From contig NZ_JAPZVN010000001.1 in NCBI RefSeq assembly GCF_027533845.1, positions 620,001 to 684,000 on the forward strand: DNA of 64,000 nucleotides, written 5' to 3'. This stretch comes from Streptomyces sp. RPT161. GTDB taxonomy: Bacteria > Actinomycetota > Actinomycetes > Streptomycetales > Streptomycetaceae. The notes below the pieces were generated by a model, which saw nothing but the letters and a program-made list of their open reading frames with translations, was not told where the DNA came from and ran no database searches. Made by a program: the position numbers and the translations under genes. This document shows positions 13,067 through 23,524 of the stretch, in pieces (the first letter of the stretch is position 1; each line of letters opens with the position of its first letter).

Positions 13067-14029
13067 CTACCTTCTGCGCGGGGCGAGATCGGCGACCCGG
13101 CCCGCGGTCGACTGCTCCGGTGGCAGCGGGGCGCTGCGCAGGGTCGCCCCCGGCTGGCCGCCGCCCGGCCGGACATGCCGGCGCGGGCCCGGCACCGGAA
13201 CGTCTCTTCGGGTCCGCCCGCCGCTCGCCTCACCCCCGTCCGAGGGTGAAACGGAAGCGACAGTGATGCGCACACCGCAGTCAGCGAGCGCCTGTAGTTC
13301 GGTCGCCGCGCGGTCATCGCCCATCGGGGGCTCGTCGGTGACCAGATGGGTTATGACATCGGACGGCACGGTCTGGAACATGGTGTCCGTGCCGAGCTTG
13401 CTGTGATCGGCCAGCACCACGACCTCGGCGGCGGCCTGCACCAGGGCGCGGTCCACGCTGGCGGAGAGCATGTTGGAGGTGGACAGACCGCGCTCCGCGG
13501 TCAGCCCGCTGCCGGACAGGAACGCCCTGGTCACCCGTAGCCCCTGGAGTGACTGTTCGGCGCCGCTGCCGACGAGTGCGTAGTTCGAGCCGCGCAACGT
13601 GCCACCGGTCATGACGACCTCGACCCGGTTGGCGTGTGCCAACGCCTGTGCGACCAGTAGGGAGTTGGTGACCACGGTGAGGCCGGGAATGCGCGCGAGC
13701 CGACGGGCCAGCTCCTGCGTGGTGGTCCCGGCACCCACGACGATGGCCTCGCCCTCCTCGACGAGACCAGCCGCGAGATCGGCGATCGCCGTCTTCTCCG
13801 CGGTCGCTAGATGGGTTTTCTGCGGAAAGCCGGATTCCCTGGTGAAACCGCCCGGCAACACGGCACCGCCGTGCCGGCGGTCGAGCAGTCCTTCGGCCTC
13901 AAGCGCCCGCACGTCCCGCCGTACGGTCACTTCGGAGGTCTGGACGACGCGGGCGAGTTCACGGAGCGAGACCGCCCCGTTCGCTCGCACCATTTCGAGG
14001 ATCAACTGACGACGTTCTGCTGCGAACAC
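13067..14029 (-). CDS. DeoR family transcriptional regulator
   Basis: 320 aa. The N-terminal winged HTH (AAERRQLILEMVRANGAVSL, then SEVTVRRDVRALEAEGLL) is the classic DeoR signature. The C-terminal part is a DeoRC sugar-phosphate sensor domain (IVVGAGTTTQELARRL, LADHSKLG). The last 60 residues are a Pro/Arg-rich tail not needed for the fold. The start is GTG 14027-14029; no Shine-Dalgarno is visible before it. Members usually sense phosphorylated sugars. It lies 2.3 kb from punA, so control of nucleoside genes is possible, but its own upstream region lacks the CTACGCGCGTAG operator. Confidence 0.88.
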   Translation of the reverse strand: MFAAERRQLILEMVRANGAVSLRELARVVQTSEVTVRRDVRALEAEGLLDRRHGGAVLPGGFTRESGFPQKTHLATAEKTAIADLAAGLVEEGEAIVVGAGTTTQELARRLARIPGLTVVTNSLLVAQALAHANRVEVVMTGGTLRGSNYALVGSGAEQSLQGLRVTRAFLSGSGLTAERGLSTSNMLSASVDRALVQAAAEVVVLADHSKLGTDTMFQTVPSDVITHLVTDEPPMGDDRAATELQALADCGVRITVASVSPSDGGEASGGRTRRDVPVPGPRRHVRPGGGQPGATLRSAPLPPEQSTAGRVADLAPRRR

Positions 14030-16381: not shown

Positions 16382-17197
16382 GTGAACGCAACCGCAAATC
16401 TCCCCACCGACCCGTACGCCGCCGCAAGCGAGGCGGCGACCCGTCTGCGCGAGCTGACCGGCGCCGAGACCCACGACGTCGCGCTCGTCATGGGCTCCGG
16501 CTGGGTCCCGGCCGCCGACGCCCTCGGCGACCCCGAGCACGAGTTCTCCGTCACCGAGCTCCCCGGCTTCCCCCCGCCGGCCGTCGCCGGCCACGCGGGC
16601 AAGATCCGTTCCGTCCGGATCGGCGAGAAGCGCGCCCTGGTCTTCCTGGGCCGCACCCACCTGTACGAGGGCCGCGGCGTGGCCCCCGTCGTGCACGGCG
16701 TCCGTACCGCCGTGGCCGCGGGCTGCAAGACCGTCGTGCTGACCAACGGCTGCGGAGGCCTGCGCCCCACGTTCAAGCCGGGCGAAGCCGTCCTGATCAG
16801 CGACCACATCAACATGACGGCGACCTCGCCGATCGTGGGCGCCAACTTCGTGGACCTCACCGACCTGTACTCGCCGCGGCTGCGCGCGCTGTGCAAGGAG
16901 GTCGACGCGACGCTGACCGAGGGCGTCTACGTGCAGCTGCCCGGCCCGCACTACGAGACCCCGGCCGAGATCGGCATGGTCCGGGCGATCGGCGGCGACC
17001 TGGTGGGTATGTCGACCACGCTGGAGGCGATCGCCGCCCGTGAGGCGGGCGCCGAGGTGCTGGGCATCTCGCTGGTGACCAACCTCGCCGCGGGCATGAC
17101 CGGCGAGCCGCTCAACCACGAAGAGGTCCTGGAAGCCGGCCGCGACTCCGCCACCCGGATGGGCAGCCTCCTCGCCCAGGTGCTCGGCCGCATCTAA
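16382..17197 (+). CDS. punA: purine nucleoside phosphorylase
   Basis: Phosphorolysis of (deoxy)inosine and (deoxy)guanosine to base and (deoxy)ribose-1-phosphate. It belongs to the trimeric NP-II family (271 aa): [13 protein letters not shown] phosphate loop, [18 protein letters not shown], and [10 protein letters not shown] with the base-binding Glu. The Asn in SLVTNLAAG is the residue that favours 6-oxopurines, so adenosine would first need deamination by Add, encoded 14 kb away. Start GTG 16382 lacks a Shine-Dalgarno and lies where transcription should begin. The mutase gene follows after 20 bp and is probably co-transcribed. Confidence 0.93.
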
Positions 17198-17217: not shown

Positions 17218-18885
17218 ATGGCAATGGACACGCTGACCCGGGCTCGCGCCTGGCTGGCCGAGGACCCCGATCCGGAGACCCGGGCCGAGCTGGCCGCGCT
17301 GATCGACGCCGGTACGCCGGAGGCGGAGGCGGAGATCGCCGAGCGCTTCTCCGGGACCCTCCAGTTCGGCACCGCCGGACTCCGGGGCGAGCTGGGCGCG
17401 GGACCGATGCGGATGAACCGCGCCGTGGTGATCCGTGCGGCGGCGGGCCTGGCCGCGTACCTCAGGTCGCAGGGCCACGCCGACGGCCTGGTGGTGATCG
17501 GGTACGACGCCCGCCACAAGTCATACGACTTCGCGCGGGACACCGCGGCCGTGGTGACCGGTGCCGGACTGCGTGCCGCCCTGCTGCCGCGGTCGCTGCC
17601 CACGCCGGTACTGGCTTTCGCCATCCGGGAGTTGGGCGCGGCGGCCGGTGTGATGGTGACCGCCAGTCACAACCCGCCGCGGGACAACGGCTACAAGGTC
17701 TACCTCGGTGACGGCTCGCAGATCGTGCCGCCCGCGGACGCCGGGATCGCCGCGCAGATCGCCGCGATCGGCGCGCTGGCCGAGGTGCCGCTGGCCGACG
17801 GCGGCTGGCGGACGCTGGACGACGGAATCGTCGAGGCGTACCTCACCCGCGCCGGGACCGTGGTCGCCCCGGGCGGCCCGCGCGATGTCTCCGTCGTGTA
17901 CACGCCGATGCACGGCGTCGGCGCCGACGTGCTGACCGCCGCGTTCGCGCGGACCGGTTTCCCGGCCCCGGCGGTCGTACCGCAGCAGGCGCAGCCCGAT
18001 CCGGACTTCCCGACGGTGGCCTTCCCCAACCCGGAGGAGCCGGGGGCGATGGACCTGTCGTTCGCGCACGCCCGTGCCGAGCGCCCGGACATCGTGATCG
18101 CCAACGACCCGGACGCGGACCGCTGCGCGGTGGCCGTACCGGACGCCGCCGCGGCGAGTGGCTGGCGGATGCTGCGCGGTGACGAGGTGGGCGCCCTGCT
18201 CGCCGAGCACCTGGTGCGCAGGGGCGCGAAGGGCACGCTGGCGGCCTCGATCGTGTCGTCCTCGCTGCTGTCGCGGATCGCCGCGGCGGCCGGGCTGCCG
18301 TACCAGGACACCCTCACGGGATTCAAGTGGATCGCCCGGGTGCCCGGTCTGCGGTACGGGTACGAGGAGGCGCTCGGCTACTGCGTCGACCCCGAGGGCG
18401 TACGGGACAAGGACGGCATCACGGCGGCGCTGCTCGTCGCCGAGCTGGCGGCCGGTCTGAAGGCTGACGGCCGCACCCTCAGCGACCTGCTGGACGAACT
18501 CGCCGTCCGGCACGGGCTGCACGCCACCGACCAGTTGTCGGTGCGGGTCGCCGATCTGACGCTGATCGCCGACGCGATGCGGCGGCTGCGCGAGCAGCCG
18601 CCCTCGCAGCTGGCCGGTCTCGCCGTCACCTCGGCGGAGGACCTGAGCCAGGGCAGCGACCAGCTGCCGCCGACCGACGGCCTGCGCTACCACCTCGCGG
18701 GCGACGGGACGGTCTCTGCGGCACGGGTCATCGTCCGGCCGAGCGGCACCGAGCCGAAGCTGAAGTGCTACCTGGAGGCGGTTGTCCCGGTGGCCGGGCT
18801 CGATGCGCTGGCGTCCGCGCGGGGCGCCGCCAGCGAGGTGCTGGCGGCGCTCAAGAAGGATCTGTCGGCCGCGGCCGGTATCTGA
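17218..18885 (+). CDS. phospho-sugar mutase (phosphopentomutase/phosphomannomutase-like)
   Basis: 555 aa alpha-D-phosphohexomutase. Landmarks in order: TASHNPPRDNGYKVY with the phosphoserine, IANDPDADRCAV metal loop, DTLTGFKWIARV-GYEEALGY sugar loop, and RPSGTEPKLKCYLE phosphate site. Start ATG 17218 follows AAGGAG. The length and GFKWI/GYEEA loops resemble the PGM2-type branch, some members of which act on ribose- and deoxyribose-1-phosphate. Position directly after punA, and the lack of deoB nearby, suggest that it converts pentose-1-phosphates to 5-phosphates for DeoC; usual annotation would be phosphomannomutase. Confidence 0.85.
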   Translation: MAMDTLTRARAWLAEDPDPETRAELAALIDAGTPEAEAEIAERFSGTLQFGTAGLRGELGAGPMRMNRAVVIRAAAGLAAYLRSQGHADGLVVIGYDARHKSYDFARDTAAVVTGAGLRAALLPRSLPTPVLAFAIRELGAAAGVMVTASHNPPRDNGYKVYLGDGSQIVPPADAGIAAQIAAIGALAEVPLADGGWRTLDDGIVEAYLTRAGTVVAPGGPRDVSVVYTPMHGVGADVLTAAFARTGFPAPAVVPQQAQPDPDFPTVAFPNPEEPGAMDLSFAHARAERPDIVIANDPDADRCAVAVPDAAAASGWRMLRGDEVGALLAEHLVRRGAKGTLAASIVSSSLLSRIAAAAGLPYQDTLTGFKWIARVPGLRYGYEEALGYCVDPEGVRDKDGITAALLVAELAAGLKADGRTLSDLLDELAVRHGLHATDQLSVRVADLTLIADAMRRLREQPPSQLAGLAVTSAEDLSQGSDQLPPTDGLRYHLAGDGTVSAARVIVRPSGTEPKLKCYLEAVVPVAGLDALASARGAASEVLAALKKDLSAAAGI

Positions 18886-20221: not shown

Positions 20222-21232
20222 GTGACCATGCAGACCCCCGGGCACCTCACGCCCGCATACAGCCCGCAGGCCGCGGAGCGGCTGGCGTCGATGGCCGACG
20301 TCACCGCGTCCGACGCAGCGCTGCGCCGGTTCCTGCACGGGCTGCCCGGCGTCGACGCGGTCGGCCTCGAAGGCCGTGCCGCCACGCTCGGCACCCGTTC
20401 GATCAAGACCACGGCGAAGGCGTACGCCATCGACCTGGCGATCTCGATGATCGACCTGACGACCCTGGAAGGCGCCGACACCCCGGGCAAGGTCCGGGCG
20501 CTGTGCGCCAAGGGCGTCAACCCCGACCCGACCGACCGTACGGCCCCCAAGGTCGCCGCGATCTGCGTCTACCCGGACATGGTGAAGACCGCCAAGGAGG
20601 CGCTCGACGGCTCGGGCATCCACGTGGCGTCGGTCGCCACCGCCTTCCCGGCCGGGCGCGCCGCCTTGCCGGTGAAGCTGGCCGACACCGCCGACGCGGT
20701 GGCCGCGGGCGCGGACGAGATCGACATGGTCATCGACCGCGGCGCCTTCCTGTCCGGCCGCTACCTTCAGGTCTTCGAGGAGATCAAGGCGGTCAAGGCG
20801 GCCTGCGCCCGTCCCGACGGTACCGCCGCGCATCTCAAGGTGATCTTCGAGAACGGCGAGTTGGCGACCTACGACAACATCCGCCGGGTCTCCTGGCTGT
20901 CGATGCTCGCGGGCGCCGACTTCATCAAGACCTCCACCGGCAAGGTCGCGGTCAACGCCACCCCGCCGAACACCCTGCTGATGCTGGAGGCGGTACGGGA
21001 CTTCCGCGACGCCACCGGCGTACAGGTCGGCGTGAAGCCCGCGGGCGGCATCCGCACCACCAAGGACGCCATCAAGTACCTGGTGATGGTGAACGAGACG
21101 CTGGGCGCGGAGTGGCTGACCCCGGAGTGGTTCCGCTTCGGCGCCTCCAGCCTGCTGAACGACCTGCTGATGCAGCGTCAGAAGCTGAGCACCGGCCGGT
21201 ACTCCGGTCCCGACTACGTGACGGTGGACTGA
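20222..21232 (+). CDS. deoC: deoxyribose-phosphate aldolase
   Basis: Class I aldolase splitting 2-deoxyribose-5-phosphate into acetaldehyde and glyceraldehyde-3-phosphate. Evidence: AICVYPDMV, DEIDMVIDRGAFLSG with the proton-relay Asp, LKVIFENGEL, GADFIKTSTGK with the Schiff-base Lys, and VKPAGGIRTTKDA with the second active-site Lys. At about 336 aa it has an N-terminal extension over the 250-aa enterobacterial enzyme, like other actinobacterial DeoC. GTG 20222 fits the leaderless promoter; ATG 20228 two codons later is the other choice. The first ALDH gene begins 5 bp after its stop, consistent with oxidation of the acetaldehyde product. Confidence 0.93.
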   Translation: MTMQTPGHLTPAYSPQAAERLASMADVTASDAALRRFLHGLPGVDAVGLEGRAATLGTRSIKTTAKAYAIDLAISMIDLTTLEGADTPGKVRALCAKGVNPDPTDRTAPKVAAICVYPDMVKTAKEALDGSGIHVASVATAFPAGRAALPVKLADTADAVAAGADEIDMVIDRGAFLSGRYLQVFEEIKAVKAACARPDGTAAHLKVIFENGELATYDNIRRVSWLSMLAGADFIKTSTGKVAVNATPPNTLLMLEAVRDFRDATGVQVGVKPAGGIRTTKDAIKYLVMVNETLGAEWLTPEWFRFGASSLLNDLLMQRQKLSTGRYSGPDYVTVD

Positions 21233-21237
21233 TCAAC

Positions 21238-22668
21238 ATGGCTTTCGAGTACGCACCGGCGCCCGAGTCGCGGTCTGTTGTCGACATCGCGCCGTCCTAC
21301 GGGCTGTTCGTCGACGGCGAGTTCCGCCCCGCGGAGGACGGCAAGGTCTTCAAGACCGTCTCACCGTCCAGCGAGGAGGTCCTCTCCGAGGTCGCTCAGG
21401 CCGGTCAGTCGGATGTGGACGCGGCGGTCAGGGCCGCCCGCAAGGCGTTCGAGAAGTGGTCGGCGCTGCCGGGTGCCGAGCGCGCCAAGTACCTGTTCCG
21501 GATCGCCCGGATCATCCAGGAGCGCTCGCGTGAGCTGGCGGTGCTGGAGTCGCTGGACAACGGCAAGCCGATCCGCGAGTCGCGGGACGCCGATCTGCCG
21601 CTGGTCGCCGCGCACTTCTTCTACTACGCGGGCTGGGCGGACAAGCTCGGCCACGCGGGCTTCGGTTCCGACCCCAAGCCGCTGGGCGTGGCCGGTCAGG
21701 TCATCCCGTGGAACTTCCCGCTGCTGATGCTGGCGTGGAAGATCGCCCCCGCGCTGGCCTGCGGCAACACGGTGGTGCTCAAGCCCGCCGAGACCACACC
21801 GCTGTCGGCGCTGTTCTTCGCGGACATCTGCCGCCAGGCGGGGCTGCCCAAGGGTGTCGTCAACATCCTCACCGGTGACGGGAGTACGGGCGCCGCGCTG
21901 GTCGCCCACCCGGACGTCAACAAGGTGGCGTTCACCGGCTCCACGGAGGTCGGCAAGGCGATCGCCCGTACCGTCGCGGGCACCGAGAAGAAGCTGACGC
22001 TGGAACTCGGCGGCAAGGCGGCGAACATCGTCTTCGAGGACGCGCCGATCGACCAGGCCGTCGAGGGCATCGTCAACGGCATCTTCTTCAACCAGGGGCA
22101 CGTCTGCTGCGCCGGTTCCCGGCTGCTGGTCCAGGAGTCCGTCCAGGACGAGCTGCTGGAGGCGCTCAAGCGCCGCATGTCGACGCTGCGGGTCGGTGAT
22201 CCGCTGGACAAGAACACCGACATCGGCGCGATCAACTCCGCCGAGCAGCTGGCCCGCATCAAGTCCCTGGCGGACAGCGGCGAGGCCGAGGGCGCGGAGC
22301 GCTGGGCACCGCGGTGCGAACTGCCGTCCACCGGCTACTGGTTCGCGCCGACGCTGTTCACCGGCGTCACCCAGGCACACCGGATCGCCCGCGAGGAGAT
22401 CTTCGGCCCGGTGCTGTCGGTGCTGACCTTCCGTACTCCGGCGGAGGCGGTGGAGAAGGCCAACAACACCCCGTACGGACTGTCGGCGGGCATCTGGACG
22501 GAGAAGGGATCCCGCATCCTGTGGATGGCCGACAAGCTGCGCGCCGGCGTGGTGTGGGCCAACACGTTCAACAAGTTCGACCCGACCTCGCCGTTCGGCG
22601 GCTACAAGGAGTCGGGCTTCGGTCGCGAGGGCGGCCGTCACGGTCTGGAGGCGTACCTCAATGTCTGA
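21238..22668 (+). CDS. aldehyde dehydrogenase, catalytic half of a split ALDH16-like pair
   Basis: 476-aa NAD(P)-dependent aldehyde dehydrogenase. PWNFPLLMLAWKIAPALACG and FTGSTEVGKAI bind the cofactor, LELGGKAANIVFEDA holds the general-base Glu, and FFNQGHVCCAGSRL the catalytic Cys. It ends with the EIFGPVL, ANTFNKFDPTSPFGGYKESG blocks. Position 5 bp after deoC makes acetaldehyde the obvious substrate (acetate product), though this is inference. The ATG overlaps the end region of deoC without its own strong ribosome site, so translation is probably coupled. The downstream ALDH-like gene overlaps its last 8 bp. Confidence 0.92.
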   Translation: MAFEYAPAPESRSVVDIAPSYGLFVDGEFRPAEDGKVFKTVSPSSEEVLSEVAQAGQSDVDAAVRAARKAFEKWSALPGAERAKYLFRIARIIQERSRELAVLESLDNGKPIRESRDADLPLVAAHFFYYAGWADKLGHAGFGSDPKPLGVAGQVIPWNFPLLMLAWKIAPALACGNTVVLKPAETTPLSALFFADICRQAGLPKGVVNILTGDGSTGAALVAHPDVNKVAFTGSTEVGKAIARTVAGTEKKLTLELGGKAANIVFEDAPIDQAVEGIVNGIFFNQGHVCCAGSRLLVQESVQDELLEALKRRMSTLRVGDPLDKNTDIGAINSAEQLARIKSLADSGEAEGAERWAPRCELPSTGYWFAPTLFTGVTQAHRIAREEIFGPVLSVLTFRTPAEAVEKANNTPYGLSAGIWTEKGSRILWMADKLRAGVVWANTFNKFDPTSPFGGYKESGFGREGGRHGLEAYLNV

Positions 22669-23524
22669 GTCAAGGTTGGGCGTCTTCAAGACCTACAAGC
22701 TGTTCGTCGGGGGCAAGTTCCCCCGGTCCGAGAGCGGGCGGGTGTACGAGGTGACGGACCCCAAGGGCAACTGGCTGGCCAACGCCCCGCTGGCGTCCCG
22801 CAAGGACGCCCGGGACGCGGTGGTCGCCGCACGCAAGGCGTTCGGCGGCTGGTCGGGGGCGACCGCGTACAACCGCGGCCAGATCCTCTACCGGATCGCC
22901 GAGATGCTGGAGGGCCGTCGCGAGCAGTTCGTCCGCGAGGTGGCCGAGGCCGAGGGGCTGTCCAGGTCGAAGGCGGCGGCCGTGGTGGACGCGGCGGTCG
23001 ACCGCTGGGTCTGGTACGCGGGCTGGACCGACAAGATCGGTCAGATCGCGGGCGCCGCAAACCCGGTCGCGGGGCCGTACTTCAACCTCTCCACCACCGA
23101 ACCGACCGGTGTGGTGGCCGTGTTGGCGCCGCAGGAGTCCTCGTTCCTCGGGCTGGTCTCGGTGCTGGCACCGGTGATCGCGACCGGTAACACGGCCGTG
23201 GTGGTGACCTCGGAGAGGTCTCCGCTGCCCGCACTGTCGCTGGGCGAGGTGCTGGCCACCTCGGACCTGCCCGGTGGTGTGGTCAACGTGCTGTCCGGCA
23301 AGGCGGCCGAGATGGGCCCGCACCTGGCCGCGCACGGCGATGTCAACGCGATCGACCTGACGGGCGCGGACGCGGAGTTGGCGACCGCGTTGGAGACGGC
23401 CGCCGCCGACAACCTCAAGCGGGTGCTGCGGCCGCGTGACGAGGACTGGTCGGCCGAGCCCGGCACCGACCGGCTGCTGGCGTTCCTGGAGACCAAGACC
23501 GTCTGGCATCCGATCGGGGTGTGA
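22661..23524 (+). CDS. truncated aldehyde dehydrogenase-like protein without catalytic Cys
   Basis: 287 aa. It aligns with the first half of an ALDH: FVGGKFPRSESGRVYEVTDP, ARKAFGGWSGATAYNRGQIL, VWYAGWTDKIGQIAG, then a cofactor-domain region (VLAPQESSFLGLVSVLAPVI). It stops before the catalytic Cys domain and ends with LLAFLETKTVWHPIG. Intact ribosome context and the 8-bp overlap with the upstream ALDH argue against a pseudogene. In ALDH16 proteins one chain carries a full ALDH domain followed by a second, catalytically incomplete one; 476 plus 287 aa is close to that size. I infer a two-subunit version in which this part is structural. Confidence 0.8.
   Translation: MSESRLGVFKTYKLFVGGKFPRSESGRVYEVTDPKGNWLANAPLASRKDARDAVVAARKAFGGWSGATAYNRGQILYRIAEMLEGRREQFVREVAEAEGLSRSKAAAVVDAAVDRWVWYAGWTDKIGQIAGAANPVAGPYFNLSTTEPTGVVAVLAPQESSFLGLVSVLAPVIATGNTAVVVTSERSPLPALSLGEVLATSDLPGGVVNVLSGKAAEMGPHLAAHGDVNAIDLTGADAELATALETAAADNLKRVLRPRDEDWSAEPGTDRLLAFLETKTVWHPIGV

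Follow-up and report, generated by a model that had tools for sequence, protein, structure and literature searches.

Two neighbouring genes directly behind deoC in the window, the stretch of 64,000 nucleotides of Streptomyces sp. RPT161 analysed here, probably encode an obligate two-subunit ALDH16, where a small non-catalytic chain would replace the second subunit in an aldehyde dehydrogenase (ALDH) dimer and the pair would oxidize the acetaldehyde produced by deoxyribose-5-phosphate aldolase (DeoC). A comparison with the Pfam Aldedh profile (461 long) shows that the large chain covers positions 4-458 and the small chain only 4-232. The top PDB match of the large chain corresponds to residues 11-475 of the ALDH16 from Loktanella (E-value of 1.1e-169, with the next enzyme at 4e-126), and that of the small chain to residues 498-766 of the same protein (1.3e-55, next 1.4e-32). 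A close second copy of the small chain is absent from its genome, where the large chain comes next, with 34% identity, and the remaining matches are other ALDH-like frames with at most 33% identity. These comparisons support that the large and small chains correspond to two consecutive parts of ALDH16. The first-pass annotation had described a full ALDH of 476 residues and an overlapping chain of 287 residues without the catalytic Cys domain, which together resemble the two domains of ALDH16; the open reading frames and Pfam agree with its coordinates and sizes, and the consecutive PDB matches, along with the existence of true fusions among relatives elsewhere, bear out the resemblance.

Several features of ALDH16 proteins are recognizable in the pair. 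The N-terminal ALDH part keeps the catalytic Cys, Glu, and Asn, with Asn159, Glu256, and Cys290 being invariant in an alignment of 40 rows, and, according to both alignment and model, this first part is devoid of the full oligomerization hairpin and of the C-terminal pairing strand. The ALDH-like extra C-terminal domain, with the hairpin kept and the catalytic domain missing, is present here as the separate small chain. Moreover, 80 ALDH16-type rows group apart from 6 classical rows with a SH-aLRT support of 99, in a tree where the outgroup consists only of the paralogues of the same genome, on long branches. Dimers that mimic the classical ALDH tetramer and NAD+-dependent oxidation of aldehydes are further hallmarks of ALDH16. 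The feature that is absent is the single polypeptide of ~770-800 residues, each of the 81 loci compared, the window included, having two genes, and because of this the pair is classified here as a two-gene sister form working like ALDH16, rather than as a plain member of the family.

The arrangement of the genes is given in Table 1. The large gene starts after a gap of 5 nt from the deoC stop (21232), which agrees with the earlier description of genes that nearly touch deoC, although the overlap with deoC also mentioned there does not exist. A Shine-Dalgarno-like GGAGG is located 9 nt upstream of the ATG of the small gene, and translational coupling of both genes through their overlap is likely from this layout. 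The third-position GC content is 0.95 for deoC, 0.93 for the large gene, and 0.94 for the small gene, dropping to 0.68 and 0.51 when the small gene is read in its two alternative forward frames, and no internal stops are present. Regarding deoC, the start codon could be either GTG 20222 or ATG 20228, and the protein carries ~70 extra N-terminal residues (window 20222-20430), the best PDB aldolase matches starting at residues 67-73.

Table 1. Features of the deoC-ALDH16 region, with positions counted from the first nucleotide of the window.
Feature	Position	Strand	Remarks
Purine-nucleoside phosphorylase	16382..17197	+	NCBIfam TIGR01698 PUNP, 325.4 bits (cut-off 302.6); upstream pathway gene
Phospho-sugar mutase, PGM/PMM family	17218..18885	+	Pfam PGM_PMM_I to IV
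deoC, deoxyribose-5-phosphate aldolase, long form	20222..21232	+	NCBIfam TIGR00126, 180.8 bits (cut-off 117.3)
Large (catalytic) ALDH16 chain	ATG 21238..TGA 22668	+	476 aa; Asn159, Lys182, Glu256, Cys290 present
Small (non-catalytic) ALDH16 chain	ATG 22661..TGA 23524	+	287 aa
Overlap of large stop and small start	22661..22668	+	8 nt, different reading frames

Upstream of deoC, the purine-nucleoside phosphorylase is followed by a mutase that reaches no NCBIfam cut-off in the profile search and whose best PDB match is a putative phosphomannomutase, with phosphopentomutase lower in the list; a phosphopentomutase role is one that we infer from the neighbouring genes only. Between this mutase and deoC lies a gene for a PH-domain protein on the opposite strand. 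Together with deoC, the phosphorylase and the phosphomutase would plausibly form a deoxynucleoside route. Also, a DeoR-type regulator is encoded upstream of the nucleoside genes (window 13067-14029, minus strand), and is a putative controller of them.

The two chains show complementary losses. Aligned with six further ALDHs encoded in its genome, the large chain shows a shortened hairpin stretch and no C-terminal strand, the rest being complete, and the short hairpin stretch is common to the large chain and the N domains of fused ALDH16 proteins. The small chain, on the other hand, retains a NAD-binding-type Rossmann domain, the oligomerization hairpin, and the C-terminal strand (ending in KTVWHPxG), and has lost the catalytic domain. 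The KPxE-type motif has an established role in the NAD site, and another residue takes the place of its lysine in each small chain (six) and each fused C domain (three) of the alignment. A motif scan covering the chains of usable length finds the catalytic Cys in all 77 large and all 86 fused ones, where one large and 11 fused chains depart from the scanned pattern and read NQGEVCCAGSR; the scanned motif is carried by none of the 81 small chains and none of the 86 fused C domains.

Structure prediction gives the same picture. Modelled with AlphaFold, the small chain (pLDDT of 92.4, pTM of 0.90) has strands at residues 140-148 and 276-284, matching the hairpin and the C-terminal strand that it retains. 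The top Foldseek matches of this model are 6MVR, 6MVU, and 6MVS (TMq of 0.89), and VIA-align pairs residues 4-287 of the model with residues 494-766 of 6MVU (Z of 37.2). The same program also lays the small model over classical ALDHs from near their N terminus to their C-terminal end, with ~270 of the 287 residues paired and rows tied at a Z of ~37. In the model of the large chain (pLDDT of 88.9), strands of at least three residues are absent between residues 54 and 150, and the last elements are a helix and a strand of two residues; its fold search places 6MVR, 6MVS, and 6MVU first, matching also complete ALDHs with a TM of ~0.9.

In the phylum of the window, 396 genomes were searched with the small chain at E ≤ 1e-40 and with the large chain at E ≤ 1e-175, giving matches in 84 genomes (own included) and 82 genomes, respectively. 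Both genes occur in 81 of the 85 genomes with either of them, the other four being contig-end cases: three with the small gene only (G211 and G267, where a partial large gene is visible, and G287, where the small gene starts at base 239 of the contig) and one with the large gene only (G135, where the cut-off match begins at base 1). Hence the small gene is not found broken in relatives, an outcome that the first-pass annotation had named as damaging to its proposal. The locus set is composed of 79 of the 83 loci from other genomes, a Nonomuraea locus, and the window, leaving out G097, G149, G181, and G287, whose matches lie near contig edges. In all of these 81 loci the halves are separate, with varying gaps and overlaps. 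This count retains L100, whose apparent frame of 758 codons turns out to be a large gene interrupted by frame changes of the draft assembly, with a separate small gene after it. In four loci (L060, L062, L064, and L078), 0.6-2.1 kb with other open reading frames lie between the halves and both halves are kept, so coupled translation is not essential. Moreover, against eight relatives, dN/dS ranges from 0.17 to 0.42 for the small gene and from 0.15 to 0.33 for the large gene, both genes being under purifying selection.

The association with deoC pointed out in the first-pass annotation recurs far beyond the window, in split and fused loci. In the window's phylum, deoC lies upstream in 76 of the 81 split loci, within 400 nt in 67 of them and at 0.5-2.6 kb in nine. 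It is absent from the fetched stretch in five (L064, L091, L105, L118, and L120), and in the last four of these a contig end truncates the large gene itself. In L064 (G386), a split pair has ~2.5 kb of upstream sequence with no match to deoC, the neighbourhood being broken away from a contig end. In Streptomyces coelicolor, SCO4913 and SCO4912 would be the two ALDH genes. PMC3293853 names SCO4914 as deoxyribose-phosphate aldolase and describes SCO4913 as homologous to the gene of an arginine-catabolic enzyme. A fused form could have escaped the small chain at E ≤ 1e-40; a second search of the same 396 genomes with the C-terminal domain of the Sinorhizobium protein as the query revealed none, as the 83 genomes matched were all among the earlier 84, with identities of at most 48%.

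Outside this phylum, fused genes are found in several groups. From 149 matching records, ten plasmid-borne loci of Alpha- and Betaproteobacteria were selected, two of which belong to S. meliloti pSymB. Every one of the ten carries a fused gene directly behind deoC, and the annotation, available for nine of them, lists deoC as the preceding gene each time. A scan of named genomes used an alignment led by the Sinorhizobium C-terminal domain, and the best 80 of its 585 candidate loci, by design those nearest to the fused form, comprise 78 fused loci and two without the large part at a contig end. For these 78, deoC lies at most 600 nt upstream in 74 and at 685 nt in one, and is absent from the stretch in three (L167, at a contig end, L169, and L203). 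The record titles in this set include Alpha-, Beta-, and Gammaproteobacteria, Chloroflexi, Gemmatimonadetes, Opitutales, Nannocystaceae, SAR324, and Thermoanaerobaculum. Also, in the phylum of an Ensifer genome, 27 of 299 genomes match. These matches lie without exception in open frames of 779-871 codons, a length suggestive of fused genes. The fused ALDH16 genes of Sinorhizobium, Agrobacterium, Caballeronia, Paracoccus, and others follow deoC directly on the same strand, as the pair does in the window. However, they consist of one gene, and their other annotated neighbours are ribokinase, an RbsD/FucU-type protein, an epimerase, or transporters. A fused deoC-ALDH16 locus is also present in an actinobacterial record, titled Nocardioides marinus DP1N28-1 (L201); it nests among Rhodobacteraceae-type rows and could represent either horizontal transfer or contamination.

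The phylum represented by a genome with the title Chloroflexi contains both forms. Here, 74 of 251 genomes match, with one match per genome at the threshold used, 32 of the split type with 52-63% identity and 42 of the fused type with 36-42%, and 41 of the 42 fused-type matches lie in frames of at least 680 codons. The other one (G550) has a fused-type sequence in an open frame of just 424 codons, and may be a separate split or an assembly error. The 40 loci compared in this phylum comprise 22 split, 17 fused, and one cut by a contig end, and the 22 split loci extend the split form beyond the window's phylum. deoC lies at most 600 nt upstream in 14 of the 40, elsewhere in the stretch in 12, and is not seen in the stretch in 14, indicating that its link with ALDH16 is weaker in this group.

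A phylogeny of fused and split ALDH16, as suggested by the first-pass annotation, resolves them as two sister clades. The tree of the N domain contains 86 rows: the window's phylum contributes 20 split ones, the Chloroflexi phylum 21 that are split and 17 that are fused, and a further 22 are other fused genes, with six ordinary ALDHs completing the set and the Loktanella protein not among them. It places the split clade (99) as sister to the fused clade (99), with phyla mixed within each. The tree of the C domain agrees (fused 99, split 85), and another rooted tree, omitting one fused row without the trimming site, gives a fused clade with a support of 99 and the same sister relationship. The outgroups of these trees are long branches, which meet at the root in the C-domain tree. 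From these sister clades it follows that the architecture changed once among the sampled rows; the separation lies at the base, and either direction is compatible with the trees. Thus, the first-pass wording of domains cut into separate genes, which implies fission, goes further than the trees do. The opposite order is a possible, although tentative, scenario, in which the two-gene form is older: a homo-oligomeric ALDH behind deoC would have been duplicated, one copy losing the catalytic domain and the other the pairing elements, to give an obligate pair that was later fused into ALDH16, including the human pseudoenzyme ALDH16A1. In such a case, ALDH16 would originally have been the acetaldehyde-clearing partner of DeoC.

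Based on these observations, the large chain carries the whole active site, and the small chain is an ALDH minus its catalytic domain that retains the pairing parts of ALDH subunits. Replacing the second subunit of the classical dimer, the small chain would supply the large chain with a hairpin and a C-terminal strand, a role played by the C-terminal domain in fused ALDH16. The composition of the active form would be either alpha-beta or (alpha-beta)2. According to a review (PMC8160307), tertiary contacts within the Loktanella chain mimic the quaternary contacts of other ALDHs, and the split pair would turn this imitation within one chain back into two proteins. The enzyme would act after DeoC in deoxynucleoside breakdown, converting acetaldehyde to acetate.

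The identity of the substrate depends on gene order, because DeoC also yields glyceraldehyde-3-phosphate, and deoC is close in only 14 of the 40 loci of the Chloroflexi phylum. In this regard, glyceraldehyde-3-phosphate enters glycolysis directly, whereas acetaldehyde has no direct place there. DeoC has two aldehyde products, as stated in an excerpt of PMC6365646, and in Pseudomonadota the fused gene is also found beside ribokinase, aldose epimerase, and sugar transporters, so the pair could be ALDH16-like and act on glyceraldehyde-3-phosphate or another sugar aldehyde. Nonetheless, the direct entry of glyceraldehyde-3-phosphate into glycolysis leaves acetaldehyde as the product that needs an extra enzyme, and a different substrate appears rather unlikely.

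It is also conceivable that the large chain is an ordinary homo-oligomeric ALDH that works alone, the small chain being a regulator, a chaperone, or a binding protein for something else. Every catalytic residue is in the large chain, and its lone model is confident and resembles complete ALDHs, so that independent folding is conceivable. The small chain, for its part, might have a different partner, and dN is higher for its gene in all eight comparisons. However, the elements for ALDH pairing are those lost in the large chain and kept in the small one, both genes co-occur with no exception away from contig ends, and the fused sister lineage holds both parts in a single chain. This makes a large chain acting alone unlikely.

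A further proposal, made in the first-pass annotation, is a complex of DeoC with both ALDH chains where acetaldehyde is passed directly from one enzyme to the other. The position of deoC in most loci of two architectures agrees with it, and the N-terminal extension of DeoC could be, as a guess, a docking region; yet contact cannot be read from gene order alone, no positive evidence for a handover was found, and deoC stands apart from the pair in the nine more distant split loci and in many of those of the Chloroflexi phylum. The gene order can be explained without channelling, and such a complex is improbable. Finally, although the start of the small gene falls within the last codons of the large gene and in a different frame, the frameshift or decay of a fused gene in this genome is ruled out, with hardly any chance left to it, by the separate genes of all 81 loci with their varied gaps and overlaps, the purifying selection, and the start codon and Shine-Dalgarno-like site of the small gene itself.

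Among known systems, the closest to the two-subunit ALDH16 proposed here is the ALDH16 from Loktanella sp. (PDB codes: 6MVR, 6MVS, 6MVT, and 6MVU), which has the same two parts in the same order, with identities in structural alignments of 55% for the large chain and 38% for the small one. Its catalytic Cys also lies in the first part and the second part is without the catalytic domain, but the protein is a single chain of 767 residues, whereas the window holds two genes. These four structures are reportedly the work of Liu and Tanner in 2019. Human ALDH16A1, which is likened to the window pair by description, has an ALDH-like part and a C-terminal domain in one chain. Unlike the large chain of the window, it is a pseudoenzyme without catalytic residues, as described in excerpts of PMC10650815 and PMC8160307, and the former presents its roles as incompletely understood and lists its substrate as unknown. 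Classical ALDH1/2-type enzymes share the fold and the catalytic residues with the large chain, although each of their subunits carries its own hairpin and C-terminal strand, whereas each chain of the window holds part of the set. A functional analogy from other enzyme families is provided by prozyme-type pairs, such as AdoMet decarboxylase and TbPRMT1 ENZ/PRO, where, according to an excerpt of PMC10211241, a dead relative completes a live enzyme. In the open-licence literature searched, no description was found of a two-gene ALDH16 form or of a link between ALDH16 and deoC. The phrase "aldehyde dehydrogenase" was counted 0 times in the deoxyribose pathway paper (PMC6365646), and "ALDH16" 0 times in PMC12547972, on split homologues in gut microbes.

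ALDH16 is a poorly understood family, and a recurring gene order hints at its purpose. The presence of deoC as a neighbour across two architectures and several phyla offers a concrete hypothesis for the purpose of bacterial ALDH16. Moreover, in a natural two-gene form the catalytic and non-catalytic parts can be made, mixed, and deleted separately, which makes the purpose of the extra domain directly testable. If the two-gene form is indeed the older one, the pair in the window would be a living intermediate on the way to one protein that imitates a dimer within itself.
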